Positions 26,396 to 42,793 are shown, counted from the first letter of the stretch. The stretch is 64,000 bases of DNA from Anaerobaca lacustris (GCF_030012215.1 NZ_JASCXX010000001.1:62001-126000); one strand, 5' to 3'. Numbers and translations are program-made. Notes: a model not told the origin generated them from the letters alone.

Positions 26396-27693
26396 GAATC
26401 GTTCAAATCAGCCCCGGCTCCGGGGACAACTTCTATTGCGAGAACTGTCTGCGTGATGCGGCGCTGGTCAGGGCGATGCGAAGGCTCGACCACGACGTGC
26501 TCATGGTCCCATTGTACCTGCCCTTGCAGGCCGATAAGACCGAGCCGGTGAGCAATGCGCCGATCTTCTTCGGCGGGGTCAACGTGTTCCTTCAGCAGAA
26601 GTGCGCCCTGTTCCGCAAGACCCCGCGATGGATTGACAAGCTGTTCGACTCGCGCCGGCTCCTGGAGTGGGCGGCCCGCAAGGCGGGGATGACCAGTGCC
26701 CGCGATCTGGGCGAAACGACGATCTCCATGCTCGAAGGAGAGAACGGCCGGCAGGTCAAGGAGTTGGATCGCTTCGTGGATTGGCTCGCGGAGACCCAGC
26801 AGCGGCCCGACGTGGTTTGCCTTTCCAACGTCCTGCTCGGGGGGCTGACCCGCCGGATCAAGGACAAGCTCGGTGTCCCCGTCGTCTGTCTGTTGCAGGA
26901 CGAGGACGGATTTCTCGATGGGCTCACCAGCCCCTATGCCGAGCGGGCCTGGGAGATCGTCCGCCGGCTGGCACGTGACATCGATGGCTTCATCGCGGTC
27001 AGCACATACTTTGCCCGCACGATGCAGAAGCGGCTCGACGTCGAGGACAAGCGGATGCACGTCGTGCATATGGGGATTGACCTGAAGGACTACGTGCCTT
27101 CGCCGAGTCACCCGCCCGTCCCCACGATTGGGTTCCTGTCGCGGATGTGCCCGGAGCGGGGGCTCGACGTGCTCGTCGACGCTTTCATTCTTCTCAAGAG
27201 CCGCGATGGACTCAGGGAGACGAAGCTGCAGATCTCGGGCGGGCGCAGCGCCGCCGACGAACCCTTCATCAAGCGGTTGCAGGACAAGTTGGAAGCAGCC
27301 GGTGTTCTTAGCGATGTCGATTTCCAGGAGACGTTCGATCGCGATGCGAAGCTGGATTTCCTGCGAGCTCTTTCGGTTCTCTGCGTCCCGGAACGGGGTC
27401 CCGTCGCGTATGGTCTGTACGTGCTGGAGGCCCTGGCGATGGGCGTGCCCGTCGTCGAGCCTGCGATCGGTTGTTTTCCCGACACGATCGAGATGACCGG
27501 GGGGGGCGTATTGTATGCGCCCGGTCCGGCCGAGACGGTGGCCGAGGCGCTGGCGCCGCTGCTGCTGGACGACGAGGCGGCAAAGAAGCTCGGCGCCCAG
27601 GGCCGGGACGGCGTGCGTCGCGCGTTCGACATCGAGCAGACCGCACGGAAGATGGTCGAGACGTGCGAACGAATCGCTCAACGAGCCAAGTGA
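26392..27693 (+). CDS. GT4-type glycosyltransferase
   Basis: A 433-residue GT-B glycosyltransferase. The acceptor half begins MRIVQISPGSGDNFY. The C-terminal donor half has the GT4 pattern: FLSRMCPERGLDVLVDAF (near 243-260), then a nucleotide-sugar pocket with EALAMGVPVVEPAIG (near 347) and GGGVLYAPGP (near 368). CENCLRD near residue 18 is conserved-looking and unusual for GT4 enzymes in general. It would transfer a sugar from a nucleotide donor at the cytoplasmic face of the membrane. Position between a propeller protein and an ABC exporter suggests a role in making or exporting a surface glycan or glycolipid. Acceptor and donor are unknown. Confidence 0.88.
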   Translation: MRIVQISPGSGDNFYCENCLRDAALVRAMRRLDHDVLMVPLYLPLQADKTEPVSNAPIFFGGVNVFLQQKCALFRKTPRWIDKLFDSRRLLEWAARKAGMTSARDLGETTISMLEGENGRQVKELDRFVDWLAETQQRPDVVCLSNVLLGGLTRRIKDKLGVPVVCLLQDEDGFLDGLTSPYAERAWEIVRRLARDIDGFIAVSTYFARTMQKRLDVEDKRMHVVHMGIDLKDYVPSPSHPPVPTIGFLSRMCPERGLDVLVDAFILLKSRDGLRETKLQISGGRSAADEPFIKRLQDKLEAAGVLSDVDFQETFDRDAKLDFLRALSVLCVPERGPVAYGLYVLEALAMGVPVVEPAIGCFPDTIEMTGGGVLYAPGPAETVAEALAPLLLDDEAAKKLGAQGRDGVRRAFDIEQTARKMVETCERIAQRAK

Positions 27694-27701
27694 GGGAAAC
27701 G

Positions 27702-28391
27702 ATGGTCGAGCTGGTCGATGTGACGAAGGAGTATGGACAGTCGGACCCGATGACTGCCGTCCACGTGCTGAAAGGCATCCGGCTGAAGATCGACCGGGGC
27801 CGTGCGGTGGTCATCGTCGGGCCTTCGGGCAGCGGCAAGAGCACGCTGCTCAACATCGTCGGGGGGCTGGACCATCCGACGAGCGGCCGCGTGATCTTCG
27901 ATGGGCGGGACCTGGCCGGACTGGCGGACCACGAACTGGCGCAGATACGCAGCCGCGAGATTGGTTTCGTCTTCCAATTGCACCACCTGCTGCCCCAGTG
28001 CACCGTTTTGGAGAACGTGCTGATTCCGACTCTGGCCGGCAACGACGGCACGGCGCCGAAGGCCCTGCGGCAGCGGGCGGAATCTTTGCTCGACCGCGTC
28101 GGCCTGAAGGACCGTATGGGGCACCGCCCCGGTGAGCTTTCCGGGGGCCAGCGGCAGCGCGTCGCCGTGGCCCGGGCGCTGATCAACCAACCCAAGCTGC
28201 TGCTCGCCGATGAGCCGACCGGCTCGCTGGATGAAGCGACATCCGAAGACGTCGCCGGACTGCTGGTTCAACTCAATCGCGACGAAGGAGTGACCCTGAT
28301 CGCCGTGACGCACTCGCAGAAGCTGGCGTCGCGCATTGGAGACGTCATGGAGCTGCGCGGGGGCCTGCTGACCGACAGAGGCCGGCCATGA
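27702..28391 (+). CDS. ABC transporter ATP-binding protein of the LolD/MacB type
   Basis: A 229-residue ATPase. Walker A GPSGSGKS (40-47), Q-loop Gln92, signature LSGGQ (146-150), Walker B LLLADE (166-171) and the switch His204 are intact. The spacing and FVFQLHHLLPQCTVLENV segment are those of the LolD/MacB/FtsE subfamily, which drives mechanotransmission across the envelope rather than transport through the membrane. Start ATG at 27702 with GAGGG upstream, 8 bases after the glycosyltransferase. It overlaps the permease gene by 4 bases, so the two form one exporter. Possible cargo: lipoprotein or another envelope-associated substrate. Confidence 0.94.
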   Translation: MVELVDVTKEYGQSDPMTAVHVLKGIRLKIDRGRAVVIVGPSGSGKSTLLNIVGGLDHPTSGRVIFDGRDLAGLADHELAQIRSREIGFVFQLHHLLPQCTVLENVLIPTLAGNDGTAPKALRQRAESLLDRVGLKDRMGHRPGELSGGQRQRVAVARALINQPKLLLADEPTGSLDEATSEDVAGLLVQLNRDEGVTLIAVTHSQKLASRIGDVMELRGGLLTDRGRP

Positions 28392-31300
28392 GCCTGTGGC
28401 GGCTGGTGGCGCGGAGTCTGCACTTCTACTGGCGGACCAATGTGGCCGTCCTGATGGCCGTCGTGGTTGCCACCGGGGCACTGACAGGCGCACTGGCGGT
28501 CGGCGATTCGGTCCGTTACACGCTGCGCCGAACGCAGGAGGCCCGCCTCGGTCGGACGGAGTTCGCCGTTGTCCCGCAGGGCCGCTACTTTCGGGCGGCG
28601 CTGGCCGACGATTTGACAGAGACGCTCGACTCGCCCGTTGCGCCGGTTCTCCAGGTTTCCGGCCTCGCGACGAACGACGATGGCTCGCGTCGGCTGAATC
28701 GCGTTGAGGTCCTTGGCGTGGACGACCGATTCTACGCGATCGGGGCGGCGGAAAACCCGTTGGATGGCGATGGGAGCGAGGCGGTCGTCGTCAGCGAGTC
28801 CGTCGCCGAGAGGCTGGGCGTTTCGGTCGGCGACGAGGTCGTGCTTCGCATCGAAAAGCCCGGCCTGATGCCGCGCGACGTTCCGCTGGCGTCCGATGTG
28901 GATCGGACGGCCGCCTTCCGCTTGCGAGTTGCGCGGATTGCGGGCGACGCACTCTTCGGTCGGTTCGACCTCAAGGCCAATCAGGTCGCTCCGCTGAACG
29001 TCTTCGTGCCTCTGGGGTGGCTGGGCGAGCAGATTGAACAGCCCGGACGGGCCAATGCTCTGCTGGCGGCCGACCTCGGCGAGTCCTTTGCGGCTGAACA
29101 ACTCAACGATGCGGTTCAAAGCGGCTGGAAACTTGCGGACGCGGACATCGAGCTTCGTAAGCTGGAGGGATCGAATGCGCTGGAACTGCGCAGCCGGCGC
29201 ATTTTCGTCGAGAATGATATCAGCTCTGAGGCTCTGAAGGCCGAGAGCGAGGCGGTGGGGATCCTGACGTATTTCGTCAACTCGATCCGGCTGGGCGAGA
29301 GAAGCACGCCGTATTCGATGGTTGCGGCCGTCGGTTCGGGGTCCGGCGTCGGTGCGCTGGTCCCATCCGCGATGAACTCCAGCGAGATCGCCATCAACCA
29401 GTGGCTTGCCGACGATCTCGCCGCCGCCGTAGGCGACTCCGTCGAACTGAGCTACTACCTCGTGGGGCCGATGCGGCAGTTGTACGAACGTACGATCTCG
29501 CTCCGAGTTGCTGCGATCGTTCCCATGGAAGGCGCGGCGCTCGATCCCCATCTGATGCCCGATTTCCCGGGCCTGGTCGATGTCGACAACTGCCGCGACT
29601 GGGAGGCGGGAATCCCGATCGACCTGGACAGGATCAGGCCCAAGGACGAGGCCTATTGGGACGACTATCGCGGGACGCCCAAGGCCTTCATTACGCTCGA
29701 TGCCGGCCGCTCGGAGTGGTCCAATCGCTACGGCAACCTCACGGCGGTGCGCTATCCGTGGCGCGCCGGTCTCGAAGAGAAAATCGAGGCCGATCTGACA
29801 AGCCAGGTCGATCCGGCGACGGCGGGCCTGTTCTTCCAGCCGGTCCGCCAGCGCGGGCTTCGGGCGCAGCGCGAAGGGACGGACTTCGGGCAGCTCTTCC
29901 TCGGCCTGAGCATGTTCCTGATCGCCTCGGCGGTCATCCTGACGGGCCTGCTCTTCGTCTTCGGCGTCGAGGCCCGCAGCGAACAAGTGGGCCTGCTGCT
30001 GGCGGTCGGATTGTCTGCGGCCCGCGTGAAGCGGTTGCTCGTCGGCGAAGGGGCCCTCGTGGCCCTCGTCGGTGCGGTCGTCGGTGTCGGTGCCGGGCTG
30101 CTCTATACGCGGCTGCTGGTCTATGGTCTCTCGACCTCGTGGAGTGGTGCGGTCGCGGGGACGAGGATTCACTTCCAGGCCGAACCGGCCACGCTCCTGC
30201 TCGGTGCTCTGGGCGGTCTGCTGGCGGCTTTGCTGGCGATGTGGATCACGCTTGCCAGGCACGTCTCTCAGTCTCCGCACCGTCTGATGAGCGGGAGCCT
30301 CGAAGCGTCGTATTCCCGTGGCGCTGCGCGGTCGCGCGGACGGTGGGGTCTGGTCCTGGCGGTGGTTTCGTTTGTCAGCGTGGGGGTCTTTCTGGCCGTC
30401 ATGCGCGCCGGCGACAGCCAGGCGGTTGCAGGGTTGTTCTTCGGGGCCGGCGTGCTGCTGCTGCTCGGCGGCCTGGGCCTGTGCCAGGCCCTGCTTCGGA
30501 TCGTTGGAGGCGGCTGGACCCGGCCGATGGTGTCTCTGGGGGGCCTGGGTTTCCGCAATACGACCCGGCGCGGCGGTCGGAGCCTGGCGATTGTTGGGCT
30601 TCTGGCGTGCGGCGTCTTCATGGTCATTGCGGTGGGGGCCAATCGCCGCGATCCTATGGCGCAGCCGCAAAGCCGGGGATCGGGCACCGGCGGGTTCGCT
30701 TTCTATGGCGAGAGTTCCGTTCCCATCCTTCACGATCTCAATACGGAGGAAGGCCGCGAAGCCCTGGGTCTGGGCCATGACGACCTGGAAGCGGTTGAGT
30801 TCGTCCAGTTCCGCGTCCACGATGGAGATGACGCCAGTTGCCTGAACCTCAATCGGGCCCAGCGGCCACGACTGCTTGGTGTTTCGTCGCAGGAATTGAC
30901 CCGTCGCAGTGCATTCACGTTTTCCCACGTTCACGACGAGGAGCGAAAAGAGGAAGGATGGGGTCTCTTGCGGACCGATCTGCCTGGCGGCTCCGTACCG
31001 GCGGTTGGGGACTATCCAACCGTTTTCTGGGGTCTGGGCAAGAACATCGGCGACGAGTTGGAGTATAGTGACGAAAGAGGTCGGGTGCTTCGGGTTCGCA
31101 TCGTCGGCATGCTGGAAAGCTCCATCCTCCAGGGCAGTCTCGTAATAGCCGAAAACGAGTTCATGGCGCGGTTTCCGTCGGAGTCGGGGTATCGCGCGTT
31201 TCTGATCGATGCCCCGGCCGAACGGGGTGTTGCCGTGGAGCAGATTCTGACCTCCAGACTGCGGGATTTCGGTCTGGTTCTGACGCCGGCGGCTGAGCGG

Positions 31301-31708
31301 CTGGCCGCCTTCAGCGCCGTGGAAAACACGTATCTGTCGATCTTTACGGCCCTGGGTGGCCTGGGGCTGATTCTCGGCAGTGTGGGGCTGGGTCTTGTTG
31401 TGCTGAGAAACATGCTGGAACGCCGAGGCGAGCTGGCCATGCTCCGGGCGGTGGGTTTTGATCGCAAAACCCTGCAGCGTATGATATTCTACGAGCATTG
31501 GGGTTTGGTGCTCTCAGGCTTGTGTTGCGGCGTGGTGGCGGCACTGGTCGCCGTGGTTCCGGCACTGCAATCGTCGCCCGGGCAGCTTCCCTATGGCTCC
31601 TTGGCCCTGACCGTGGCGGCCATTGGCGCCCTCAGCGGTCTGTGGGTATGGATCGCCGGGGCCTTGACCCTGCGCGGGGCACTGCTCGACGCGTTGAGGA
31701 CAGAGTAG
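28388..31708 (+). CDS. Large FtsX/MacB-type ABC transporter permease
   Basis: An 1106-residue permease with the topology of the large fused FtsX proteins. One helix near 18-40 is followed by a long extracytoplasmic domain (about 45-495). Then comes a first FtsX core of several helices (about 500-700), a helix at about 730-750, a second extracytoplasmic domain (about 755-975), and a terminal FtsX core (about 980-1100). LolC/LolE and MacB are about 400-650 residues and have four helices, so this is a double-size version with about ten. Such large permeases function as a single chain, so no second permease gene is expected, and none is present. Coupled to the ATPase by an ATGA overlap. Substrate unknown. 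Confidence 0.88.
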   Translation: MSLWRLVARSLHFYWRTNVAVLMAVVVATGALTGALAVGDSVRYTLRRTQEARLGRTEFAVVPQGRYFRAALADDLTETLDSPVAPVLQVSGLATNDDGSRRLNRVEVLGVDDRFYAIGAAENPLDGDGSEAVVVSESVAERLGVSVGDEVVLRIEKPGLMPRDVPLASDVDRTAAFRLRVARIAGDALFGRFDLKANQVAPLNVFVPLGWLGEQIEQPGRANALLAADLGESFAAEQLNDAVQSGWKLADADIELRKLEGSNALELRSRRIFVENDISSEALKAESEAVGILTYFVNSIRLGERSTPYSMVAAVGSGSGVGALVPSAMNSSEIAINQWLADDLAAAVGDSVELSYYLVGPMRQLYERTISLRVAAIVPMEGAALDPHLMPDFPGLVDVDNCRDWEAGIPIDLDRIRPKDEAYWDDYRGTPKAFITLDAGRSEWSNRYGNLTAVRYPWRAGLEEKIEADLTSQVDPATAGLFFQPVRQRGLRAQREGTDFGQLFLGLSMFLIASAVILTGLLFVFGVEARSEQVGLLLAVGLSAARVKRLLVGEGALVALVGAVVGVGAGLLYTRLLVYGLSTSWSGAVAGTRIHFQAEPATLLLGALGGLLAALLAMWITLARHVSQSPHRLMSGSLEASYSRGAARSRGRWGLVLAVVSFVSVGVFLAVMRAGDSQAVAGLFFGAGVLLLLGGLGLCQALLRIVGGGWTRPMVSLGGLGFRNTTRRGGRSLAIVGLLACGVFMVIAVGANRRDPMAQPQSRGSGTGGFAFYGESSVPILHDLNTEEGREALGLGHDDLEAVEFVQFRVHDGDDASCLNLNRAQRPRLLGVSSQELTRRSAFTFSHVHDEERKEEGWGLLRTDLPGGSVPAVGDYPTVFWGLGKNIGDELEYSDERGRVLRVRIVGMLESSILQGSLVIAENEFMARFPSESGYRAFLIDAPAERGVAVEQILTSRLRDFGLVLTPAAERLAAFSAVENTYLSIFTALGGLGLILGSVGLGLVVLRNMLERRGELAMLRAVGFDRKTLQRMIFYEHWGLVLSGLCCGVVAALVAVVPALQSSPGQLPYGSLALTVAAIGALSGLWVWIAGALTLRGALLDALRTE

Positions 31709-31732: not shown

Positions 31733-33130
31733 ATGAGCAAATCCGCTATCGCCGACATTGTGCCGATGGGTTTCGCCGTCGCGGGAGCGGTCTGTCTTGT
31801 GTACCTCTGGATCAGCGCCGATGCATCACCGCAGTTCGAGCCGCGCATCCCCATTGAGTCGAATGTCGTCGTCCAATCGGTCGCCCGGGGCGACGTGCTG
31901 GCCCGCGCGGAACTGACGACGTATGAGGGGCAGCCGGCCGATCTGCCCGGCGAGTGGCCGCAGTTTCGAGGTCCGGCTCTCGATGCCGTTGGCCGGGTGG
32001 ATGTGACGCTGGCCCGTCAGTGGCCTGACGGGGGCCCGCGCGTCTTATGGTCCGTCGATCTGGGGGAAGGGTACGCCGGGGCCGCCGTTCGCGACGGCAG
32101 GGTCTTCGTGGCCGACTACGACCAGCAGAAGCACGGCGATGCGATTCGGTGTTTTTCTCTGGCCGACGGGCAGGAGATTTGGCGGTATTTCTACCCCGTC
32201 CGGATCAAACGCAATCACGGCATGAGCCGAACCGTCCCAACCGTGACCGATGAGCACGTCGTGACGATGGGACCGATGTGTCATGTTTCGTCTCTGGATG
32301 TCGCGACGGGCGAGCTTCGCTGGTTCATCGATCTGGTCCAGGACTACGGGACCAAGGTGCCGGCCTGGTACGCCGGGCAGTGCCCGCTGGTCGAGGACGG
32401 CAAGGTCATCCTCGGCGTCGGTGGTACATCGCTGATCATGGCGGTCGATGTTGCGACAGGTGACGTTCTTTGGGAGACCCCGAACCCGAAGAAATGGGGT
32501 ATGACGCATTCGTCCCTCGTGCCGCTGGACTTTGCGGGCGAGCGGATGTACGTCTGGTGTGCCAGCGGCGGCGTGGTTGCTGTCGCAGCCCGCGATGGGA
32601 CTGTCCTATGGGAGATGCCTGACTGGCAGATTCGCATCGCCAATGTCCCCACGCCGGTTCCGGTCGGCGAGGGTCGTCTGTTTCTTTCCGGCGGGTACAA
32701 CGCCGGCGTGATGATGCTGAAGCTGGTTGAGCAGGACGGGCGGATCGTGCCGGAGATTGAGTTTCGCCTCCCGCCGCACGTCTTCGGCTCACCGCAGCAC
32801 ACGCCGATCTTCTATGAAGGGCACATCTACGGGGTCCGTCCCGACGAGCAGCTTGTCTGCCTGGATCTTGAGGGCAACGTGGTCTGGACCAGCGGCAGTA
32901 CGAACAAATTCGGGCTGGGGCCTTACACGATTGTTAATGGACTGCTCTACGTCATGGACGACCACGGTCTGCTGACGCTCGTCGAGGCGACGCCTGCCGG
33001 GTACGTGCAGTTGGCCCAGGCGAACGTGCTCGACGGGATCGACTCGTGGGGGCCGATGGCGGTCGCGTCCAATCGGCTGATCGTGCGCGATCTGACGCGG
33101 ATGGTCTGCCTGGACATCGGCGTGCCGTAA
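31733..33130 (+). CDS. Secreted or membrane-anchored PQQ-like beta-propeller protein
   Basis: A 465-residue protein with one N-terminal hydrophobic segment (about 8-28). The propeller begins at the motif WPQFRGP (near 78) that marks this large Planctomycetes group. Several blades carry the PQQ-like core, for example VLWSVDLGEGY, IWRYFYPVRI, GELRWFIDL, VLWETPNPKKW and TVLWEMPDWQ. ATG at 31733 is used; a TTG two codons earlier is also possible. As in its relatives no PQQ-contact signature is evident. The gene is 24 bases after the permease and 79 bases before an NHL protein. The propeller, NHL and Fe-S genes that follow form one group. Confidence 0.83.
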   Translation: MSKSAIADIVPMGFAVAGAVCLVYLWISADASPQFEPRIPIESNVVVQSVARGDVLARAELTTYEGQPADLPGEWPQFRGPALDAVGRVDVTLARQWPDGGPRVLWSVDLGEGYAGAAVRDGRVFVADYDQQKHGDAIRCFSLADGQEIWRYFYPVRIKRNHGMSRTVPTVTDEHVVTMGPMCHVSSLDVATGELRWFIDLVQDYGTKVPAWYAGQCPLVEDGKVILGVGGTSLIMAVDVATGDVLWETPNPKKWGMTHSSLVPLDFAGERMYVWCASGGVVAVAARDGTVLWEMPDWQIRIANVPTPVPVGEGRLFLSGGYNAGVMMLKLVEQDGRIVPEIEFRLPPHVFGSPQHTPIFYEGHIYGVRPDEQLVCLDLEGNVVWTSGSTNKFGLGPYTIVNGLLYVMDDHGLLTLVEATPAGYVQLAQANVLDGIDSWGPMAVASNRLIVRDLTRMVCLDIGVP

Positions 33131-33209
33131 GGCCGCATTGAGCGCCTGGCGCGTCTTCGCTACAATCACTACGCCTCTAACAACGGACGGACAACGAGTA
33201 GGAACGGCA

Positions 33210-34250
33210 ATGAACCAGCGGCAAGGCAAGATGGATTCCAGGGTCGTCATCGGCACGCTGATCGGCACGGCGCTGCTGGTGGCCATCGGCGCCGTCCTGC
33301 TGATCGATGTGACGGGGGAGAAGGGCAGCGGGTTGAGCCGGGCATACGAGTTGGACGCGGCCGCTCTGGCGCAGTTCGATCCGAACCTGATTCTCTACGA
33401 GGAAGTCACGCCGGCCATCGCGACGGGGTTGACCCGGTCGCGCGCCTTGGCGTTGGGACCCGATGGCCGGTTGTACGTTGCCGGCGATGAAGTGATCCGG
33501 GTGTTTGCGGAGAAGGGGACCCTGGAACGTGTCATCGGGCTCTCGGGTGCGCCTCTGTGCGTGGCCGTTTCGGCCGATGGTCGGATGTATGTTGGTATGC
33601 GAGCGCACGTCGAGGTCTTCGACGGACAGGGTCGGCGTCTGGCGGTCTGGGAGTCGTTGGGCGACGGGTCGTATCTGACGAGCATCGCCGTATCGAACGA
33701 CAATGTGTTTGTGGCCGACGCCGGACGCGCGGTGGTGCTGTATTACGATACCACGGGCAAGCTGATCCGTCGCATCGGTGAGAAGGACCCCGACAGGAAT
33801 ATCCCGGGTTTCATCGTGCCGAGTCCCTACTTCGATCTGGCCGTGGCGCCGGATGGATTGCTCCGCGTCGTCAATCCCGGACGGATGCGGATCGAGGCAT
33901 ACACGTTCCGAGGGGACCTGGAATTCTTCTGGGGCCGGAACAGCATACGTATCGAAGGCTTCTGCGGCTGCTGCAACCCGGCGAATTTCGCCATATTGCC
34001 CGACGGACGTTACGTGACGGTCGAGAAGGGCCTGATTCGTGCGAAGATCTACGATGTCGACGGCGTCTTTCAGTCTGTCGTGGCCGGCCCCGACCAGTTG
34101 GTTGAGGGCGGGGCCTCTCGTGTGTTTCTCAGTGCCCAGGACGCCGAGGCCAGCGGGTTCGACGTAGCGGTCGATTCAGCCGGCCGCATCTTCGTGCTCG
34201 ATACGATCGAGAACACCGTGCGCATCTTCGTGGAAAAGGAGAAAGGATGA
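33210..34250 (+). CDS. Membrane-anchored NHL-repeat beta-propeller protein with a CGCC motif
   Basis: A 346-residue protein with an anchor at about 12-32 and roughly six NHL-type blades, for example ALGPDGRLYVAGDEVIRVF, VAVSADGRMYVGMRAHVEVF and VAVDSAGRIFVLDTIENTVRIF. ATG at 33210 with AGGAACGG upstream is preferred over a non-ATG start 72 bases earlier. A cysteine cluster FCGCCNPANF lies in one blade loop near residue 252 and could bind metal or form a disulfide, which is unusual for plain NHL proteins. It overlaps the next gene by 4 bases. Function in an extracytoplasmic redox chain is inferred from the downstream NapGH-like genes. Confidence 0.8.
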   Translation: MNQRQGKMDSRVVIGTLIGTALLVAIGAVLLIDVTGEKGSGLSRAYELDAAALAQFDPNLILYEEVTPAIATGLTRSRALALGPDGRLYVAGDEVIRVFAEKGTLERVIGLSGAPLCVAVSADGRMYVGMRAHVEVFDGQGRRLAVWESLGDGSYLTSIAVSNDNVFVADAGRAVVLYYDTTGKLIRRIGEKDPDRNIPGFIVPSPYFDLAVAPDGLLRVVNPGRMRIEAYTFRGDLEFFWGRNSIRIEGFCGCCNPANFAILPDGRYVTVEKGLIRAKIYDVDGVFQSVVAGPDQLVEGGASRVFLSAQDAEASGFDVAVDSAGRIFVLDTIENTVRIFVEKEKG

Positions 34251-34504
34251 TCCGGGAGAATTCTGGACCGCCAAACCGAAGCCGACGAGAATTCGTTGCC
34301 GGCGCTCTGCGATATGGCGCGCTGGGGACCTTGGCCGCAAGCGGGGCTTTGGCCGTCGCCAAGAGGCGGCGCCTGGTGCGAGAGGGGGTGTGCATCAACG
34401 ATGGACTGTGCCTGGGCTGCGCCGCCTATCGCGGCTGCGATTTGCCTGCGGCACTGTATGCAAGACAGTCTTCGGAGCGAAACGATCATGCCGCAACGAA
34501 ATGA
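34247..34504 (+). CDS. Small Tat-type Cys4 protein
   Basis: An 85-residue protein starting in an ATGA overlap with the NHL gene. Arg13-Arg14 in SRREFVAGALRYG followed by a hydrophobic stretch (about 20-38) look like a twin-arginine signal, which exports folded, cofactor-loaded proteins. After it come Cys49, Cys55, Cys58 and Cys64, spaced C-x5-C-x2-C-x5-C, enough ligands for one Fe-S cluster or another metal. I know no family for it. It overlaps the next gene by 17 bases. Its place directly ahead of two Fe-S protein genes suggests an electron-transfer or assembly role. Confidence 0.65.
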   Translation: MIRENSGPPNRSRREFVAGALRYGALGTLAASGALAVAKRRRLVREGVCINDGLCLGCAAYRGCDLPAALYARQSSERNDHAATK

Positions 34505-35054
34505 CGATGTCACGCGTCGGCGATTCCTGAGAGACGGCCTTTGGGGGGCGTGCCTGGCGGGAATCGGCGGAGTGGCGGGGTTCGCCGCCCACAAGGGTCA
34601 GAAGGTCGATTGGCTCTGGCAGATCGATCCGTACAAGTGCACTGCCTGTGGCAACTGCGCGACGCACTGTGTCCTGGAGGAATCCGCCGTCAAGTGCACG
34701 CACGTGTACGGGATCTGCGGCTACTGCGAGATCTGCTTCGGCTTCTTCGATCCGGAGCCGTTCGATATCCACGAGGGCGCCGAGAACCAGATGTGCCCGA
34801 CGGGCGCCATCCTCCGCAAGTTCGTGGAGGAGCCGTATTACGAATACACCATCGACCGGCCCCTGTGCAACGGATGCGGCAAGTGTGTCAAGGGATGCAA
34901 TGCCTTTGGCAACGGGTCGCTGTTCTTGCAGGTGCACCATGACCGCTGCGAGAACTGCAACCAGTGTGCGATTGCCGCCGCCTGTCCGGCCCAGGCGTTC
35001 CGACGCGTCCCGGCCGACCAGCCCTATCTTCTCAAAAGTGTGGATCACGTTTGA
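34488..35054 (+). CDS. Tat-exported 4x[4Fe-4S]-type ferredoxin (NapG/MauM-like)
   Basis: A 188-residue protein. The N-terminus TRRRFLRDGLWGACLAG is a twin-arginine signal. Cysteine groups are CTACGNCATHC (near 45-55), CGYCEICFGF with MCPTGAI (near 77-106), CNGCGKCVKGCNAFG (near 127-141), and CENCNQCAIAAACPAQAF (near 150-167). These form about four Fe-S sites in the arrangement of periplasmic NapG/MauM ferredoxins. Its partner is the NapH-like membrane protein that follows with a 1-base overlap. NapGH pass electrons from quinol to a periplasmic acceptor. The acceptor here would be something other than NapA or MauA, which are absent. Start ATG preceded by GGAG. Confidence 0.85.
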   Translation: MPQRNDDVTRRRFLRDGLWGACLAGIGGVAGFAAHKGQKVDWLWQIDPYKCTACGNCATHCVLEESAVKCTHVYGICGYCEICFGFFDPEPFDIHEGAENQMCPTGAILRKFVEEPYYEYTIDRPLCNGCGKCVKGCNAFGNGSLFLQVHHDRCENCNQCAIAAACPAQAFRRVPADQPYLLKSVDHV

Positions 35055-36355
35055 TGGTACGTCCCCGTCCTATTCTCGTCGCGCTGGCTGCACTGCTCGT
35101 CGTGGGCGTGGCGGCACTTGGGCTGGAGCGGTTCCCTCCGCCCGAATTCGAGACGGACTACGTCCGACCGACCACGACGGCCCCGAACCCGCCCCAGGGT
35201 GTCTGGGAGTACGTCGATGCCGGTGTCCTGGCGGTCACGCTGGTCCTGGCGACGGTCCTGGTTCTGCGTACGCGCAATCGCAAGCTGATTTTTACGCTGA
35301 TGCTCTTCTGTCTGGCGTATTTCGGGTTCTTCCGCGACGGTTGCGTTTGCCCGATCGGCGCCATCCAGAACGTTACGCTGACGGCCTTCGATCCGGGCTA
35401 TGCAATTCCTCTGGCGGTGCTGATCTTCTTCGCTCTGCCTCTGGTGTTCACGCTGTTCTTCGGGCGGGTGTTCTGCGGCGCGGTCTGCCCGCTCGGGGCG
35501 ATTCAGGACGCCGTGCTGATCCATCCCGTTCGGGTCCCTCGATGGCTGGAGAGCGGGCTTCGCCTGATCGCCTACCTCTATCTCGGCGCCGGCGTGCTGT
35601 TTGCGGCGATGGGGGCGATGTTCATCATCTGCCGCTACGACCCGTTCGTGGGTTTCTTCCGTCTGTCGGGCAACTGGGAGATTCTCGTCTTCGGCGGGTG
35701 CCTGCTCTTGATCGGCATGTTCGTCGGTCGGCCGTATTGCCGTTTCCTCTGTCCCTACGGCGTCATCCTCCGGCAGCTCTCCCGGCTCAGCCGATGGCGT
35801 GTCACGATCACGCCGACCGATTGTATCCAGTGCCGTCTCTGTGAAGACGCCTGTCCGTTCGGTGCGATCCGCAAACCCACCGAGCCGTGGCCGGACAAGG
35901 AGTACAAGGTCGCCAGGCGACGGCTGGCCTTTCTGCTGGTGCTGCTGCCCGTTCTGATCGGCGCCGGCGGCTGGGGGGGATATGAGTTGCGGCAGTGGCT
36001 GGCGCTGGTCCATCCGGAGGTGCGACTGGCGCAGCGTATCTATCTGGAAGAGAACGCGCTGGTCGAAGGAACGACGGACGCCAGCGACGCGTTCCGCGCC
36101 CTGGGCAGGTCGAGCGACGAGCTTTACGCCGCGGCCACACAGCTTCGCGACCGGTTCGGGCTTGGCGGCACTTTGCTCGGCGCGTTCGTCGGATGTGTGA
36201 TCGGGGGCAAGCTGCTGACGCTGTCGGTCAAACGCAGACGCGCCGACTACGAGCCCGACCCGGCAAGCTGTCTGGCCTGTGGTCGATGCTACGCATACTG
36301 TCCGAAGGAACACGAACGGCTGAAACGTGGCAGAGAGGGGTTGATCAGACACTGA
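35054..36355 (+). CDS. NapH/NosR-like polyferredoxin membrane protein
   Basis: A 433-residue integral membrane protein with about six to seven helices. It has two membrane-edge motifs CGAVCPLGAIQD and CRFLCPYGVILR, the C-x3-C-P pair of NapH, NosR and CcoG. It also has a cytoplasmic [4Fe-4S] ferredoxin segment CIQCRLCEDACPFGAI (near 258-273) and a C-terminal cluster CLACGRCYAYCPKE (near 410). An extra RDGCVCPIGAIQN (near 96) gives a third, shorter Cys-Pro motif that NapH does not usually carry. It likely moves electrons across the membrane between quinol or cytosolic ferredoxin and periplasmic Fe-S proteins. It overlaps both neighbours by 1 base. Confidence 0.85.
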   Translation: MVRPRPILVALAALLVVGVAALGLERFPPPEFETDYVRPTTTAPNPPQGVWEYVDAGVLAVTLVLATVLVLRTRNRKLIFTLMLFCLAYFGFFRDGCVCPIGAIQNVTLTAFDPGYAIPLAVLIFFALPLVFTLFFGRVFCGAVCPLGAIQDAVLIHPVRVPRWLESGLRLIAYLYLGAGVLFAAMGAMFIICRYDPFVGFFRLSGNWEILVFGGCLLLIGMFVGRPYCRFLCPYGVILRQLSRLSRWRVTITPTDCIQCRLCEDACPFGAIRKPTEPWPDKEYKVARRRLAFLLVLLPVLIGAGGWGGYELRQWLALVHPEVRLAQRIYLEENALVEGTTDASDAFRALGRSSDELYAAATQLRDRFGLGGTLLGAFVGCVIGGKLLTLSVKRRRADYEPDPASCLACGRCYAYCPKEHERLKRGREGLIRH

Positions 36356-38103
36356 TGACGGATTCGTCGAAACAGACTTCTGTGAACGAGCCGAGTGTTG
36401 CATACCGGACGGTTCGTACGACGGCCAAGGTCGCCGGAACGTTCACCGTTCTTTTCCTGGTGCTGCTCGTGGGCAATCTCATCGGCACGACCGTGATCGG
36501 GCCGCTTCGGGAGGACCGGCTGGCGGCGATGAAGGTGGCGCTTCGCGGGGGCGATCCGACCGACGAGCAGTTGGCGGAGATACGGCAATTGGACCTTCAG
36601 ATTCGGCGCAACCGGGTCTGGCGACTGGATTTCGCACACAAGACCGGCCATGCACTTCTGGCCAGCGTGGTGGTGCTGCTGGTCGCGGGCAGGCTGATGC
36701 GTGTCTTGAACCGGCGGCCGCCCCAGCCGCAGAACGCCTTGGACGTTGGCGCCGAACAGCTTCGCGAGGCCCGAGTCAGTCGCTGGGCGGTGACAGCCGG
36801 ACTGGTGGTTCTGGGCGGCGGTGCGGCGATGCTCGTTATGGTGGGCGCGCCGCTGGCGTTCGTTGCGGCCGAGGAAACGGGCCCGGCCTATGCGTCGCGG
36901 GAGGACAAGCGCCTTCAGTGGCATCGCTTCCGCGGGCCCGACGGGGCCGGCGTGAGCATTTTCACCAATATCCCGACCGAGTGGGATGGCGCCACGGGAA
37001 AGGGCATCCTGTGGAAGGCGGCGGTGCCGCTGCCGGGGAATAACTCACCCATCATCTGGAACGATCGGGTCTTCCTTTCCGGTGCGACCGAACAAAAGCA
37101 AGAGGTCTACTGTTACGACGCGGACTTGGGCCGACTGCTCTGGACCGGTGACGTGCCCATCTCTCCGGCGGCCGCCCAAGCGAGAATCGATCCGATGGAG
37201 GACACCGGGTATGCCGCCTCGACGATGGCCACCGACGGTAAACGGGTCTATGCGATTTTCGTGACGGGTGACATCGCGGCCTTCGATTTCAACGGTCGCA
37301 GGCTCTGGTACAAGAGTCTGGGCGTGCCGGACAATGCATACGGCTATGCTTCTTCGCTGGAGACCCATCAGGATCGTGTGATTGTTCAGTACGACCAGGG
37401 TCATGGCGATGAAGATGTCTCTCGCCTCTACGCCCTGGACGGCGCATCGGGACGGGTCGTGTGGGAGGTCAAGCGCGACGTCCCGAATTCGTGGACCTCG
37501 CCGGTGGTGGTGGAGATCGAGGGTCGGCTTCAGTTGCTCACTCTGACCGATCCCTGGGCGCTGGCCAACGACCCGGCCGACGGCGCCGAGATCTGGCGGG
37601 CCGACTGCCTCGGTGGCGACGTGGCGCCTTCGGCGATCTACGCGGGCGGACTGGTGCTGGCCATCGAGCCTTACAGCCACATGGTGGCGATCAAACCTAC
37701 GGGCCAGGGCGACGTCACGAAGACCCACATTGCCTGGACCATGGACGAAGGCGGGCCCGACGTCTGCTGTCCCGTTTCCGATGGGCAGTATGCGTATCTG
37801 CTGGAGAGTCACGGCCTGATCATGTGTTGCCGCCTGGCGGACGGCGAAAAGGTCTACGAGCACGACCTTCGCGACAATTTCACCGCCTCGCCCAGCCTGG
37901 CGGGGGGGCGGCTCTACTTTCTGGGCATGGACGGCGTGATGACGATCGCCGAGGCGGGCCCCGAATACAAGGAGTTGGGCAAGAACGAATTGGGCGAGAA
38001 GTGTCACGCCTCGCCGGCTTTTGTGGACGGGCGTATTTACATTCGGGGATTGGAGAACCTGTACTGCATCGGAGGGGCCGTTGCCGGCGACCGTGCGGAC
38101 TGA
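36355..38103 (+). CDS. Membrane protein with three N-terminal helices and an extracytoplasmic PQQ-like propeller
   Basis: A 582-residue protein. Three hydrophobic helices (about 22-47, 97-118, 141-165) are followed by a PQQ-like propeller beginning at WHRFRGP (near 187). Blades read ILWKAAVPLPG, LLWTGDVPIS, LWYKSLGVP and VVWEVKRDVP. It ends with CIGGAVAG. The start ATG overlaps the stop of the NapH-like gene by one base. The fusion of a helical domain with a propeller is unlike the other propellers in the window and may tie the propeller to the NapGH-like proteins in the membrane. There is a CC pair (VCCPVS) and another (MCCRL), which could bind a metal or be a disulfide. Function unknown. 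Confidence 0.78.
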   Translation: MTDSSKQTSVNEPSVAYRTVRTTAKVAGTFTVLFLVLLVGNLIGTTVIGPLREDRLAAMKVALRGGDPTDEQLAEIRQLDLQIRRNRVWRLDFAHKTGHALLASVVVLLVAGRLMRVLNRRPPQPQNALDVGAEQLREARVSRWAVTAGLVVLGGGAAMLVMVGAPLAFVAAEETGPAYASREDKRLQWHRFRGPDGAGVSIFTNIPTEWDGATGKGILWKAAVPLPGNNSPIIWNDRVFLSGATEQKQEVYCYDADLGRLLWTGDVPISPAAAQARIDPMEDTGYAASTMATDGKRVYAIFVTGDIAAFDFNGRRLWYKSLGVPDNAYGYASSLETHQDRVIVQYDQGHGDEDVSRLYALDGASGRVVWEVKRDVPNSWTSPVVVEIEGRLQLLTLTDPWALANDPADGAEIWRADCLGGDVAPSAIYAGGLVLAIEPYSHMVAIKPTGQGDVTKTHIAWTMDEGGPDVCCPVSDGQYAYLLESHGLIMCCRLADGEKVYEHDLRDNFTASPSLAGGRLYFLGMDGVMTIAEAGPEYKELGKNELGEKCHASPAFVDGRIYIRGLENLYCIGGAVAGDRAD

Positions 38104-38113: not shown

Positions 38114-40465
38114 ATGGAAGAGCTGGACCTGACATTTGTGGATCGGACCGTCGAGCGTCTCGGTACGGGCGCCGACAAGGTGCTGGAGATCCTCCAATCG
38201 CTTCAGACCCACTATGGATATCTCCCGACCGAGGCGCTGCAACGGGTTTGCGAGCGGACGGAAATCACACCGGCCGCCATCACCGGCGTCTCGACGTTCT
38301 ACGACCAGTTTCGACACCGGCCGGCGGGCAAGCACACGATCCGTGTCTGCATCGGCACCGCCTGTCACGTCAAGGGCGGACAGCAGGTCTTCGACGCCTT
38401 CAAACGGTATCTGCACATCCCCGATGACGACGACACCGACGCCGAGAAGCTGTTCACCGTCGAGAAGGTCGCCTGCATCGGCTGCTGCATGCTCGCCCCG
38501 GCCATTCAGATCGACGACATCGTCTACGGGCATCTGAACGATCATCGCGTGCCGATCGTCCTGAAAGACTTTCTGGAGCAGGAGAAGGCTGCCGGACGCA
38601 GAAAACGCAAAGAGCGAGTCAGCCGCGCCGGCACGGGGCTGGGAGAGCTGCGAATCTGTCTCGATTCGAGCTGCCGGGCCAGCGGCAGCGAGAAGGTCTA
38701 CGAGAGTCTCAAGACGGCGGTGCACCAGACGCGGGCGCGGGCCGTGGTCAAGAGCGTCAGTTGCTCGGGCATGTCGTACCTGACGCCGCTGGTCGAAGTG
38801 GTCCTGCCCGACGGCACATCGTTTCGCTATGGCAATGTGGAACCCCAGGACGCCAAGGCGATCGTGCTTCGGCACTTCAAGCCGAGGCGAATCGGCGGCC
38901 ACACAGCCAGTGCCGTTTCGAATCTGCTGGACCGGGTCTTGACAGATGAGAATCGAGAGCCTGTGACGCGATATTCGGTCAACGTGCGTGACCATGCGGT
39001 CTCGGAATACCTCGGCCGCCAGGTCCATATCGCCACCGAGCACTGCGGGTGCATCGACCCGACCGATCTCGACGAGTATCTGGCCAACGGAGGGTTCCAG
39101 TCCCTCCAGAAGAGCCTTTGTGAACTCGATCCGCAGGGCGTGATCGACCAGATCGAGAGAAGCGGTCTGCGAGGCCGGGGCGGCGCCGGTTTTCCCACGC
39201 ATCGGAAGTGGGCGACCGTGCGGGCCCAGGACGCCGAGAAGAAATACGTCGTCTGCAACGGCGACGAGGGGGACCCCGGCGCGTTCATGGATCGCATGTT
39301 GATGGAGTCGTATCCCTATCGGGTCCTCGAAGGCATGGCCGTCGCCGCCCGCTGTATCGGGGCGAAGGAAGGATATCTCTACATCCGCGCCGAATACCCC
39401 CTGGCCATCAAGCGGATTGGCGAGGCGATCGAGAAATGCGTCGAGCGCGGGTATCTCGGTGACGGTATTCTGGGCAGTGACTTCTCGCTGCATCTGAAGA
39501 TCGTCGCCGGGGCCGGGGCGTTCGTCTGCGGCGAGGAGACCGCGTTGATCGCGAGCATCGAGGGCCGCCGGGGCATGCCGAAGCTGCGCCCGCCGTACCC
39601 GGCGATCAAGGGGCTCTGGTCCAGTCCCACGCTGATCAACAACGTCGAGACCTACGCCGCTGTGCCGTGGATACTGCGAAACGGCGCCGAGGCCTATGCG
39701 TCGATCGGTACGGACGGCAGCAAAGGCACGAAGGTCTTCGCGCTGGCGGGCAAGGTGGCCCGCGGCGGTCTGATCGAAGTGCCGATGGGCATCTCGATCC
39801 GGCAGGTCGTCGATGAGATCGGCGGCGGCGTTGCGGGCGGGCTGAACCTCAAGGCCGTGCAGGTGGGCGGGCCTTCCGGCGGCTGCGTTCCGGCTGACCT
39901 CGATCATCTACCCGTGGATTACGAGTCGCTGACCGGCGCCGGTGCGATGATGGGTTCCGGCGGTCTCGTCGTGCTGGACGAGACGGACTGCATGGTGGAC
40001 ATCGCGCGGTATTTCCTGGAGTTCACACAGAACCAGTCGTGCGGCAAGTGCACCTTCTGTCGCATCGGCACCCGCCGGATGCTCGACATTCTCGACCGGC
40101 TGTGCACCGGACACGGCCGGGCCGGCGATCTGGACGAGCTCGAGCATCTGGCCGAGATGGTCCAGAAAGGCAGTCTTTGCGGGCTCGGCAAGACGGCGCC
40201 GAATCCAGTGCTCTCGACCCTGAAGTACTTCCACAAGGAATACGAGGCCCACATTCAGAAGCGCTGTCCTGCCGGCAAGTGCAAGGCCCTCATCACCTAC
40301 TCGATCACCGACGACTGCATCGGCTGCACGATCTGCGCTCAGCACTGTCCAACCGATGCGATTGCCATGAAGCCTTATGAGAAACACGAAATCGATCCCG
40401 ACAAATGCGTTCGGTGCGGCACGTGCAAAAGCGTCTGCCCGGCCGACGCCGTGCGAGTTGAGTAG
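38114..40465 (+). CDS. NuoE-NuoF fusion diaphorase subunit with C-terminal ferredoxin domain
   Basis: A 783-residue soluble protein combining several redox modules found as separate subunits elsewhere. Residues 1-150 are a NuoE-type [2Fe-2S] thioredoxin-like domain with ligands Cys79, Cys84, Cys121 and Cys125. Residues about 177-255 are a second thioredoxin-like domain with only Cys182, Cys187 and Cys217, the fourth position being Ser221. Residues about 290-700 are NuoF: FMN loop GLRGRGGAGFP, NADH segment NGDEGDPGAF, and the N3 cluster SCGKCTFCRIGTRR. Two [4Fe-4S] clusters end the chain: CIGCTICAQHCPTDAI and CVRCGTCKSVCPADAV. This is the HydB-type diaphorase of bifurcating hydrogenases and NAD-linked formate dehydrogenases with the NuoE/HydC subunit fused on. 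It would exchange electrons between NAD(H) and Fe-S partners. The next gene starts 2 bases later. Confidence 0.92.
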   Translation: MEELDLTFVDRTVERLGTGADKVLEILQSLQTHYGYLPTEALQRVCERTEITPAAITGVSTFYDQFRHRPAGKHTIRVCIGTACHVKGGQQVFDAFKRYLHIPDDDDTDAEKLFTVEKVACIGCCMLAPAIQIDDIVYGHLNDHRVPIVLKDFLEQEKAAGRRKRKERVSRAGTGLGELRICLDSSCRASGSEKVYESLKTAVHQTRARAVVKSVSCSGMSYLTPLVEVVLPDGTSFRYGNVEPQDAKAIVLRHFKPRRIGGHTASAVSNLLDRVLTDENREPVTRYSVNVRDHAVSEYLGRQVHIATEHCGCIDPTDLDEYLANGGFQSLQKSLCELDPQGVIDQIERSGLRGRGGAGFPTHRKWATVRAQDAEKKYVVCNGDEGDPGAFMDRMLMESYPYRVLEGMAVAARCIGAKEGYLYIRAEYPLAIKRIGEAIEKCVERGYLGDGILGSDFSLHLKIVAGAGAFVCGEETALIASIEGRRGMPKLRPPYPAIKGLWSSPTLINNVETYAAVPWILRNGAEAYASIGTDGSKGTKVFALAGKVARGGLIEVPMGISIRQVVDEIGGGVAGGLNLKAVQVGGPSGGCVPADLDHLPVDYESLTGAGAMMGSGGLVVLDETDCMVDIARYFLEFTQNQSCGKCTFCRIGTRRMLDILDRLCTGHGRAGDLDELEHLAEMVQKGSLCGLGKTAPNPVLSTLKYFHKEYEAHIQKRCPAGKCKALITYSITDDCIGCTICAQHCPTDAIAMKPYEKHEIDPDKCVRCGTCKSVCPADAVRVE

Positions 40466-40467: not shown

Positions 40468-42054
40468 ATGCCCAAGCTTACGATAGACGGTCGTGAAGTT
40501 GAGGTGGACCCCGGCGCGACGATTCTCGATGCGGCCGAGAAGCTCGGGATTGAGATTCCCACCATGTGTTACCTGCGAGGCCATGAGGCGACGACCAGTT
40601 GTATGGTCTGCGTGGTGAAGGTGGTCGGCTCGCGTGGCCTCGTGCCTTCCTGCGGTACGCCTGCCTGCGATGGGATGCAGGTCGAGAGCGCCACCGAGGA
40701 GGTCCGCGACGCGCGGCGGTCGGCGCTGGAACTGCTGCTCAGCGACCACGTGGGCGACTGCGTCGGGCCCTGCGTGATGGGGTGCCCCGCCCACATGGAC
40801 ATCCCGCAGATGATCCGGCAGATCGCTGTGGGCCAGTTGGCCGATGCCATCGCAACGGTCAAGCGGGACATCGCATTGCCGGCGGTGCTGGGACGCATCT
40901 GTCCGGCGCCGTGCGAGAACGTCTGCCGGCGGGCCCAGCACGACCAGGCCGTTTCGATCTGCCTGCTCAAGCGTCACGTCGCCGATGTGGATCTCAGCAG
41001 CGACGAGCCCTATACACCCCAGTGCGCCGAAGCCAACGGCAAGCGCGTGGCGATCATCGGGGCCGGGCCGGCCGGTCTGGCGGCGGCCTATTACCTCCAG
41101 CAGGAGGGCTTCGAGTGCGTCGTGGTGGACGAGCACGATGAGCCGGGCGGGATGCTGCGCTACGGTGTGCCCGATGGCAAACTGCCGCACGATGTCCTGG
41201 CGCGCGAGATCGCGCAGATCGAGAAGCTCGGCGTGCGGTTCCGGCTCGGGATCCGTGTTGGCAAGGCCATCTCGATGGACGAGGTCCGCAAACAGTTCGA
41301 TGCTGTGTTTGTGGCCGTCGGCGAGATGAATGAAGGCGACGCCGAATCGCTCCATCTCGATCCATCCGACAAGATCGAAGTGGACGGCGCAACCTATGTG
41401 ACCCATGTCCCGGGCGTGTTCGCCGGGGGCGATGCGGTCCGCAGGCGACGGATGGCGGTGCGGGCGGTGGCCGATGGGAAAGAGGCGGCCCGGTCGATCG
41501 CGCAGTACCTTGCAGATCAGGAAGTGATTGGCCCCGAACGGCGGTTCAACAGCCGCATGGGCAAGGTCTCCGAATCGGAGATGGCGATCTTCCTACAGTC
41601 GGGCAGCCCGAAGCCGCGCACCAAACCATTTGGAGTCGCTGAGGCGTTCAGCATCGCCGAGGCGCGGACCGAATCGCTCCGCTGCCTGCACTGCGATTGC
41701 CGCAAGCCCGACGCCTGCCTCTTGCGGCAGCACGCCCAAACCTACGGCGCCAGGCAGAGCCGGTACAAAGCCGACCGTCGGTCCTTCGTTCAGCAGACAC
41801 AACACCCCGACGTGATCTACGAGCCGGGCAAGTGCATCGACTGTGGCATTTGTATCCAGATCGCCTCCGAAGCCGGCGAGAAGCTGGGCCTGACGTTCGT
41901 CGGTCGCGGCTTCGACGTCCGCGTCGCCGTACCGTTCGGGGAGACGCTGGCCGAGGGACTGTGCGTGGCCGCCGAACGATGCGTCGCCGCCTGTCCCACC
42001 GGTGCGCTGGCCTTTAGGGACGACAGAAAGCCGCCGCCGGGAACGACTCAATGA
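40468..42054 (+). CDS. NuoG-like/GltD-like Fe-S flavoprotein subunit lacking the NAD(P)H-binding domain
   Basis: A 528-residue protein. Residues 1-75 are a plant-type [2Fe-2S] domain as in NuoG, with Cys34, Cys45, Cys48 and Cys62. Residues 80-190 are the GltD-type helical domain with clusters CVGPCVMGC and CPAPCENVC. Residues 193-350 carry an FAD fold: GAGPAG (198-203), GGMLRYGVP (228-236) and FAGGD (318-322). The part where GltD, NfnB and relatives have the second Rossmann domain is missing: FDAVFVAVG runs almost directly to VDGATYVTHVPGVFAGGD. From 405 come CLHCDC with Cys417, CIDCGIC (456-462) and CVAACPTGAL, resembling the NuoG [4Fe-4S] region. It ends the 12-gene run. It would shuttle electrons between the NuoEF fusion and an unknown partner. 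Confidence 0.87.
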   Translation: MPKLTIDGREVEVDPGATILDAAEKLGIEIPTMCYLRGHEATTSCMVCVVKVVGSRGLVPSCGTPACDGMQVESATEEVRDARRSALELLLSDHVGDCVGPCVMGCPAHMDIPQMIRQIAVGQLADAIATVKRDIALPAVLGRICPAPCENVCRRAQHDQAVSICLLKRHVADVDLSSDEPYTPQCAEANGKRVAIIGAGPAGLAAAYYLQQEGFECVVVDEHDEPGGMLRYGVPDGKLPHDVLAREIAQIEKLGVRFRLGIRVGKAISMDEVRKQFDAVFVAVGEMNEGDAESLHLDPSDKIEVDGATYVTHVPGVFAGGDAVRRRRMAVRAVADGKEAARSIAQYLADQEVIGPERRFNSRMGKVSESEMAIFLQSGSPKPRTKPFGVAEAFSIAEARTESLRCLHCDCRKPDACLLRQHAQTYGARQSRYKADRRSFVQQTQHPDVIYEPGKCIDCGICIQIASEAGEKLGLTFVGRGFDVRVAVPFGETLAEGLCVAAERCVAACPTGALAFRDDRKPPPGTTQ

Positions 42055-42091: not shown

Positions 42092-42793
42092 TCAAGACGG
42101 CAGCCGAAGGGCCGTTTCGGCCACGCGGTGGCCGAGGTTCCGGGCGGTCGTCATGCCGAACTCGTCCTTTGTCACGCCTCCCTCGATGCCGCTCCATAGC
42201 GTGGCCCCGAAGCGGGAATGCGGCCGACCGTTGCCGACCACGATCATCTCCTGGCAGAACAGCGAAACCTGGACCGACTGGATCGTTGCTTCCTGTCCGC
42301 CATTGCGGGTGCCGCCGACGGCCAGGACGCCGCCGACCTTGTCGGCCAGAGCCAGGTTGTCGCGATAGAACGCCATCCACCGGTCGAGGAAGGCCTTGCA
42401 CAGCGAACTCATGTTGCCGAAGTAGACCGGCGTGCCGATGATGATGCCTCGGACCTTCGGGTCGGTGAGCTTGGGGATCAGGGCGGGAAAATCGTCCTTC
42501 TGGCCCGGTTCGAGCGGGATGCCGGCCGCCAGGTCGCCGTTGATCTTCCGTCCCGCCAGTTCGATCAATTCCGTTTTGATCCGCGGGCTGACCAGGGCGG
42601 CCGCGTCGAGGCAGGCCCGCAACGATGTGGCGGTTGCCTGACCCTGTCTGGGACTGCACGAAACTGCAACGATCTTGACGGCTTCATTGCGCAACGGCGC
42701 GTCGGCCCCGTGGGAAGCCGAAGTGACGCCGGTGGCCACGACGCCTGCGGCGATGGAATCTCTCACGAAGTTTCGACGGGTGATCGTCTTCAT
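42092..42793 (-). CDS. Tat-exported flavodoxin-like NAD(P)H-dependent FMN reductase family protein
   Basis: A 233-residue protein that begins with a twin-arginine signal (ITRRNFVRDSIAAGV). The core is the flavodoxin-like fold of the iron-sulfur-flavoprotein/NADPH-FMN-reductase family: the phosphate loop after beta1 is SCSPRQGQATATSLRA (45-60), and GTPVYFGNMSSLCKAFLDRW (near 119-138) is the FMN-ring-binding segment. The Cys spacing that holds a cluster in true iron-sulfur flavoproteins is not present. Export of a pre-folded flavoprotein is notable, because most members are cytoplasmic. AAGGAG lies seven bases upstream. It is convergent with the operon ending at 42054 and divergent from the next propeller gene. 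Confidence 0.85.
   Translation of the reverse strand: MKTITRRNFVRDSIAAGVVATGVTSASHGADAPLRNEAVKIVAVSCSPRQGQATATSLRACLDAAALVSPRIKTELIELAGRKINGDLAAGIPLEPGQKDDFPALIPKLTDPKVRGIIIGTPVYFGNMSSLCKAFLDRWMAFYRDNLALADKVGGVLAVGGTRNGGQEATIQSVQVSLFCQEMIVVGNGRPHSRFGATLWSGIEGGVTKDEFGMTTARNLGHRVAETALRLPS

Follow-up and report, generated by a model that had tools for sequence, protein, structure and literature searches.

Electron delivery to a periplasmic site is known from the NapGH and NosR/NosH systems, in which a four-cluster ferredoxin (G) exported by twin-arginine translocation (Tat) accompanies a membrane protein (H) with two CX3CP motifs and two cytoplasmic [4Fe-4S] motifs. In nos clusters, NapGH-like proteins, the NosDFY transporter and the NosZ propeller with its His7 CuZ site are encoded in one locus. 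Rnf and Nqr tie the chemistry of NADH and ferredoxin to the membrane through Fe-S clusters and flavins. In the transhydrogenase Stn (StnABC), a relative of the HydBC core of bifurcating hydrogenases, an NADPH domain feeds FAD, and electrons then pass along Fe-S clusters to FMN (PMC10482914). We analyzed a cassette of eight genes, designated P1, NHL, C4, G, H, P6, EF and GD, in a 64,000-nucleotide stretch of the genome of Anaerobaca lacustris (GCF_030012215.1, NZ_JASCXX010000001.1:62001-126000; hereafter, the window). Its modules are of known kinds, while their assembly appears to be new; no description of the cassette was found in the open-licence papers searched.

The interpretation that we favor, giving it about an even chance, is that the products of the cassette form a quinone-independent transmembrane NADH:periplasmic-acceptor oxidoreductase, with the full chain running outward and ending at the propeller P1.

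Gene order and conservation of the cassette

All six open reading frames (ORFs) that an earlier note had described at 31733-38103 were present on the plus strand, and the last five overlap as it had reported: by 4 (NHL/C4), 17 (C4/G), 1 (G/H) and 1 (H/P6) bases. P1 and NHL do not overlap, being separated by a gap of 79 bp. The Pfam scan identified PQQ_2 in P1 and P6, NHL in the second gene, Fer4 in G, and Fer4_5/Fer4 in H. The claim of an extracytoplasmic redox cluster with NapGH-like proteins was supported. The six genes are not chance ORFs, since they are conserved in dozens of homologous loci. The unit had, however, been drawn too short, with its donor undefined: EF starts 10 bp after the stop codon of P6 and GD 2 bp after that of EF, both on the plus strand, and the two are conserved with the cassette.

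When GTDB species were scanned with the NapG-like alignment, at least 544 relatives were found; the 80 most similar to the window were examined. Among these 80, the genes occurred in the nearly constant order P1-NHL-C4-G-H-P6-EF-GD, with C4 preceding NHL in Verrucomicrobiota. The loci belonged to Planctomycetota, Verrucomicrobiota (also Akkermansiaceae, Opitutaceae and Limisphaerales) and Bacteroidetes (Bacteroidota), as well as to metagenome-assembled genomes labelled Omnitrophota, Poribacteria, Armatimonadetes, Firestonebacteria and Deltaproteobacteria; these phylum names are the record labels of such genomes and can be wrong. One locus labelled Actinomycetes (L137, DAOVKO010000010.1) carries a typical Planctomycetota cassette, and its label is probably wrong. 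In loci with enough flanking DNA, H was found in 76/76, P6 in 70/76, EF in 70/76, GD in 66/76, NHL in 89/92 and P1 in 79/92, and P1 is retained at roughly 50-60% protein identity across several phyla. NHL orthologs were present, one per genome, in about 50 of the 198 genomes of the window's class and also in other classes of the phylum; many nearly complete relatives of the same order lack the cassette.

Within the class, P1 (>590 bits) and H (>400 bits) were found together in 9/9 cassette genomes, even where P1 was relocated, and in 0/34 cassette-free genomes, the latter having been picked by the absence of a close NHL match; P1 paralogs score no higher than about 340 bits. One more cassette genome (G191), 69% complete, had only a paralog-level P1 and was excluded from the nine. 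The link between P1 and H is one of co-occurrence within one class, short of proof of interaction. Propellers scattered without NapGH, a possibility raised in the earlier note, were not the pattern seen in genomes of the class. The co-occurrence in Phycisphaerae that it had looked to holds in the class, but the cassette is not limited to Phycisphaerae and extends to several phyla.

Clustering of all neighboring ORFs across the loci revealed no terminal reductase recurring beside the cassette. A hidden terminal enzyme nearby was rejected, the clustering having returned only a glycosyltransferase (GT) and shadow ORFs, with the adjoining transporter genes (ABC and PERM) counted as core. The absence of the usual acceptor, NapA or similar, was likewise supported; no PF00384 protein was found in the window's genome.

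Fe-S proteins, NADH module and propellers

The two CX3CP motifs of H (C141/C145 and C229/C233) were present in 100% of 122 sequences. Its two [4Fe-4S] motifs (C257-C267 and C406-C416) are conserved and, as a difference from NapGH/NosR, flank two extra hydrophobic helices. A further difference is the presence of the additional invariant cysteines C97, C99 and C193, which NapH itself is not known to have. Of the third Cys-Pro motif previously noted in H, the C-x-C pair (C97, C99) proved invariant, as did C193, but the proline was found in just 53% of homologs. H failed the NapH/MauN models (TIGR02163, 32.7 bits vs. a cut-off of 213; PRK09477, 34 vs. 234). Its structure was predicted by AlphaFold with a predicted local distance difference test score (pLDDT) of 83; Foldseek gave matches only at E>0.8, and the best VIA match (Z 6.4) was restricted to one helical hairpin. 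Judging from the AlphaFold helices and the flanking charges, the CX3CP and [4Fe-4S] motifs would face inside and C97, C99 and C193 outside.

G contains 16 cysteines in four [4Fe-4S] motifs behind a twin-arginine (RR) signal. In C4, the motif C-x5-C-x2-C-x5-C, with minor length variants, was found in 99/100 homologs and RR in 98/100; no family match was obtained for it in Pfam, NCBIfam or PHROG scans. The cassette resembles NapGH and NosR/NosH in this pairing of an exported ferredoxin with a membrane protein, but has an NADH module as its probable donor and lacks NapA, NosZ and any FMN-binding domain.

EF, a fusion of NuoE and NuoF, matches StnA plus StnB, or HydC plus HydB; among solved structures it is nearest to the B subunits of Stn, HydABC and related enzymes (PDB 9bov, 8oh5, 9n5u). 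The FMN and NADH motifs, the clusters and the C-terminal ferredoxin domain are conserved in its homologs, the C-terminal 2[4Fe-4S] domain comprising C735-C745 and C765-C775. GD corresponds to StnC in its NuoG and GltD parts and aligns also to NfnL, but around residue 287 it skips about 110-130 residues of the NAD(P)H-binding domain, and it has no counterpart of StnC's FdhF-like C-terminal domain. Among the GD homologs examined, the nucleotide domain was retained only by L142, L073, L080 and L081. Because this domain is lost, the FAD of GD should trade electrons by protein contact. By sequence, EF and GD belong to the HydBC/Stn superfamily, with GD failing two defining features of Stn; their partner in the cassette would be a membrane Fe-S chain rather than NADPH or hydrogenase. 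Rnf and Nqr share the joining of NADH and ferredoxin chemistry to the membrane, but no Rnf-Nqr membrane subunit occurs among the cassette proteins, and the Rnf/Nqr genes of the genome are separate.

The propeller of P1 was predicted with a pLDDT of 95.6. Residues H162, R166, C183, Q216, C217, N251, M257 and H259 are conserved in P1 orthologs of 50-60% overall identity, whereas PQQ (pyrroloquinoline quinone)-like paralogs at the same locus mostly have G183, S217 and Y259 and no prevalent His at 162; the structural residues G80, W150 and R452 are unchanged between the two groups. According to the secondary structure, the conserved residues lie on one face, in the D-A and B-C loops and at the starts of strand A. 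The His2/Cys2/Met set on this presumed top face is a possible metal site. The suggestion that the propellers are the likely site of chemistry was supported. P1 is below the NCBIfam cut-offs for PQQ enzymes (TIGR03075, 30 bits vs. 480). Its fold matches are tetrathionate hydrolase, YxaL and BamB, PQQ-like propellers without PQQ, at Z 35.4 to 29, with the top rows tied; identity is 14-23%. Tetrathionate hydrolysis was not inferred for P1 from these matches, the best of which are tied at Z of about 35 and belong to generic PQQ-like propellers. In NHL, the sequence GCCNP is invariant, along with E272 and K273; the last two cysteines (C254, C255) of the CGCC noted earlier are therefore invariant, but the first is not. 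P6 has three hydrophobic segments ahead of its PQQ-like propeller. As in nos clusters, NapGH-like proteins are encoded at one locus with an ABC transporter and a propeller of the periplasm; the cassette differs in that the transporter is of the FtsX/MacB type and the propeller is PQQ-like with the His2/Cys2/Met set rather than His7 CuZ.

Proposed electron path, its direction and rival explanations

The window's genome, 98% complete and probably belonging to Sedimentisphaerales judging from close relatives with that label, encodes Rnf/Nqr on other contigs and an [FeFe]-hydrogenase. A large ORF similar to pyruvate:ferredoxin oxidoreductase was also read in the window (20120-23938), which fits an anaerobic ferredoxin-based metabolism. 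Marker searches detected no haem-copper oxidase, PF00384 protein, MqnA/MqnD or true MenD in this genome, and 13 cassette-bearing genomes, including this one, had neither MqnA/MqnD nor true MenD. Weak MenD matches of 43-76 bits were read as other thiamine diphosphate enzymes because the cut-off is 244 bits. As no menaquinone pathway, haem-copper oxidase or molybdopterin reductase was detected, a quinol donor for H, as in NapGH/NosR, is unlikely in the window's genome. The NapGH analogy with its quinol feed is also doubtful in this lineage since the unit has the NADH-oxidizing pair EF/GD as donor. Quinone independence is argued for the window's lineage because other cassette genomes have menaquinone genes or oxidases; for those lineages it is only suggested. 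An exclusively anaerobic system was rejected, haem-copper oxidase being encoded in 11/34 cassette genomes, and so was a role as a hydrogenase substitute for an electron sink, [FeFe]-hydrogenase occurring both with and without the cassette. Matches to PF01578 do not distinguish cytochrome c assembly from HemX-like proteins.

In the proposed path, EF would accept hydride from NADH at FMN; like HydBC/Stn enzymes, it might also trade electrons with ferredoxin through its C-terminal 2[4Fe-4S] domain. Provided that the motifs are occupied by clusters, GD would relay the electrons, by way of its Fe-S clusters and its NAD(P)H-blind FAD, to the cytoplasmic clusters of H, and they would cross the membrane through H from its CX3CP motifs on the cytoplasmic side to C97, C99 and C193 on the periplasmic side. 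From H they would reach the four clusters of exported G, the Cys4 motif of C4 and the anchored propellers. The likeliest terminal site is the His2/Cys2/Met set of P1; the vicinal cysteine pair of NHL could be a relay or a second site, and P6 may anchor the assembly. The ABC/FtsX transporter that adjoins P1 in Planctomycetota probably delivers a periplasmic component or takes part in its maturation.

Outward flow is more likely than inward. The same chain could nevertheless work inward, with P1 oxidizing a substrate in the periplasm, such as a sugar aldehyde or some other compound of low potential, and electrons passing via G, H, GD and EF to NAD+ and ferredoxin. P1 shares the fold of the PQQ dehydrogenase/BamB group, and one lineage has the cassette among genes that by eye resemble L-fucose isomerase and DUF1593-type hydrolases; moreover, the class has been described as polysaccharide degraders (PMC11266412), and Stn was assayed in both directions (PMC10482914). 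This explanation is nonetheless unlikely: P1 fails the PQQ enzyme cut-offs, the sugar-gene context is limited to three related loci, and the described members ferment, which more often calls for an electron sink than for a source. Quite unlikely is reductive maturation or repair, in which electrons would be exported for the reduction of disulfides or of a metal site in exported proteins, a role proposed for MauMN and DsbD-like systems, with no respiration. The vicinal cysteines of NHL and the Cys4 of C4 suit thiol chemistry, P1 sits with an ABC/FtsX transporter and a glycosyltransferase, and the ORF clustering disclosed no dedicated substrate enzyme nearby; yet a multi-cluster machine tied to NADH and possibly to ferredoxin is large for a housekeeping task, many nearly complete relatives of the same order do without it, and the P1 residue set is cassette-specific. 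Finally, H might be a classical quinol dehydrogenase of the NapH/NosR kind, co-transcribed with an EF/GD pair that serves a separate cytoplasmic reaction. The retained CX3CP and [4Fe-4S] motifs, the loci without EF/GD and the menaquinone genes of other cassette-bearing genomes agree with this, but the 13 genomes without either menaquinone pathway, the retention of EF/GD in most loci across phyla and the loss of GD's own NAD(P)H site make it improbable.

Several points weigh against the outward NADH:acceptor chain. Its direction is not fixed by sequence, and low-potential Fe-S chains could equally run inward. BamB-like propellers can be pure scaffolds. EF and GD were not seen in L117, L130, L146, L162, L163 and L076 despite enough DNA, so another donor may serve there, and some families lack C4. 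In the window, EF has an incomplete second thioredoxin-like [2Fe-2S] site (C182, C187, C217, S221), four cysteines being present in about three quarters of homologs. Quinone loss is deduced from two marker searches (MqnA/MqnD and MenD), and menaquinone genes are present in some other cassette-bearing genomes.

If this outward chain is real, it shows how an NADH/ferredoxin-type module can supply a NapGH-like wire with no quinone in between, and the defined residue set of P1 is a candidate for a new propeller metal site. A genome survey described Sedimentisphaerales as strictly fermentative, with the respiratory chain missing (PMC11266412); a cassette retained in several phyla, and present in lineages so described, suggests a missed electron route in common anaerobic polysaccharide degraders. 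The further step, a quinone-free and cytochrome-free respiratory complex from NADH (with ferredoxin) through a Fe-S/flavin chain to a metal centre on the top face of a PQQ-like propeller, and hence unrecognized anaerobic respiration in supposed strict fermenters, is tentative and rather doubtful.

Upstream sub-operon and neighboring genes

In Planctomycetota, P1 is accompanied upstream, on the same strand, by a PQQ-like propeller, GT, ABC and PERM (Table 1), and related regions (stretches up to 20 kb) show the order GT-ABC-PERM-P1-NHL-C4-G-H-P6-EF-GD. P1 was displaced in four cassette genomes, yet found elsewhere in each; G039 has it close by, on the other strand. The displaced P1 adjoins the permease in three of the four and, where contigs or gene calls allow, also ABC, GT and the upstream propeller; GT remains beside P1 where the cassette is split. 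Since relocated P1 carries these neighbors along, the genes fall into two separable units, sub-operon A (propeller-GT-ABC-PERM-P1) and, after it, sub-operon B (NHL-C4-G-H-P6-EF-GD). In the gap between P1 and NHL, where the cassette is split in some relatives, a weak sigma-70-like match was noted (33138-33166); the number of such matches is at chance level.

Table 1. Features of the cassette and of its upstream genes in the window.
Feature	Coordinates	Strand	Basis
P1, N-terminally anchored PQQ-like beta-propeller	31733..33130	+	Pfam PQQ_2, alignments, predicted fold
Codons of the putative P1 site: H162 (32216), C183 (32279), C217 (32381), M257 (32501), H259 (32507)	32216..32509	+	Conserved in orthologs, not in paralogs
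NHL propeller, N-terminal anchor, invariant GCCNP (C254, C255)	33210..34250	+	Pfam NHL, alignment
C4, small Tat-type protein, C-x5-C-x2-C-x5-C	34247..34504	+	Motif in homologs
G, NapG-like Tat ferredoxin, 16 Cys in four [4Fe-4S] motifs	34488..35054	+	Alignment; Fer4 families
H, NapH/NosR-like membrane polyferredoxin	35054..36355	+	Fer4_5/Fer4; conserved Cys
P6, three hydrophobic segments and PQQ-like propeller	36355..38103	+	Pfam PQQ_2
EF, NuoE fused to HydB/StnB-type NuoF (FMN, NADH, [4Fe-4S], C-terminal 2[4Fe-4S])	38114..40465	+	
GD, NuoG N-terminal Fe-S domain, GltD-like FAD half without NAD(P)H domain, C-terminal Fe-S motifs	40468..42054	+	
PQQ-like propeller, head of sub-operon A (Planctomycetota)	25154..26395	+	Pfam PQQ_2, 152 bits; propeller recurs upstream of GT
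GT, glycosyltransferase family 4	26392..27693	+	Glycos_transf_1; recurs in 36 loci
ABC, transporter ATPase (start approximate)	27702..28391	+	ABC_tran, 131 bits
PERM, FtsX/MacB-type permease	28388..31708	+	FtsX, MacB_PCD

Genes inserted in some cassettes differ by lineage and read by eye like DUF1593-type, L-fucose isomerase, C69 peptidase or NifSU genes. In three loci of one Sedimentisphaerales group (L143:4263-9863, L141:1285-3830, L151:5351-9833), DUF1593-type hydrolase-like genes interrupt the cassette and an L-fucose isomerase-like gene precedes it, a context that is a possible hint at a sugar-linked function. In L162 (5161-7540), where EF and GD are missing, P6 is followed by genes that by eye are NifU-like and NifS-like.

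Just after GD in the window, the same-strand run is ended by a gene similar to NADPH-dependent FMN reductase (42092-42793, minus strand). It is followed by a PQQ-like paralog of P1 (42954-44201) without H162, C217 and H259; such copies recur downstream of GD in Planctomycetota. A metal efflux set, comprising an outer-membrane efflux protein, a CusB/HlyD-type protein with heavy-metal and YHS domains, and a CusA/CzcA-like resistance-nodulation-division ORF, lies 4 kb past the cassette (45974-53237) and is not recurrent at related loci.

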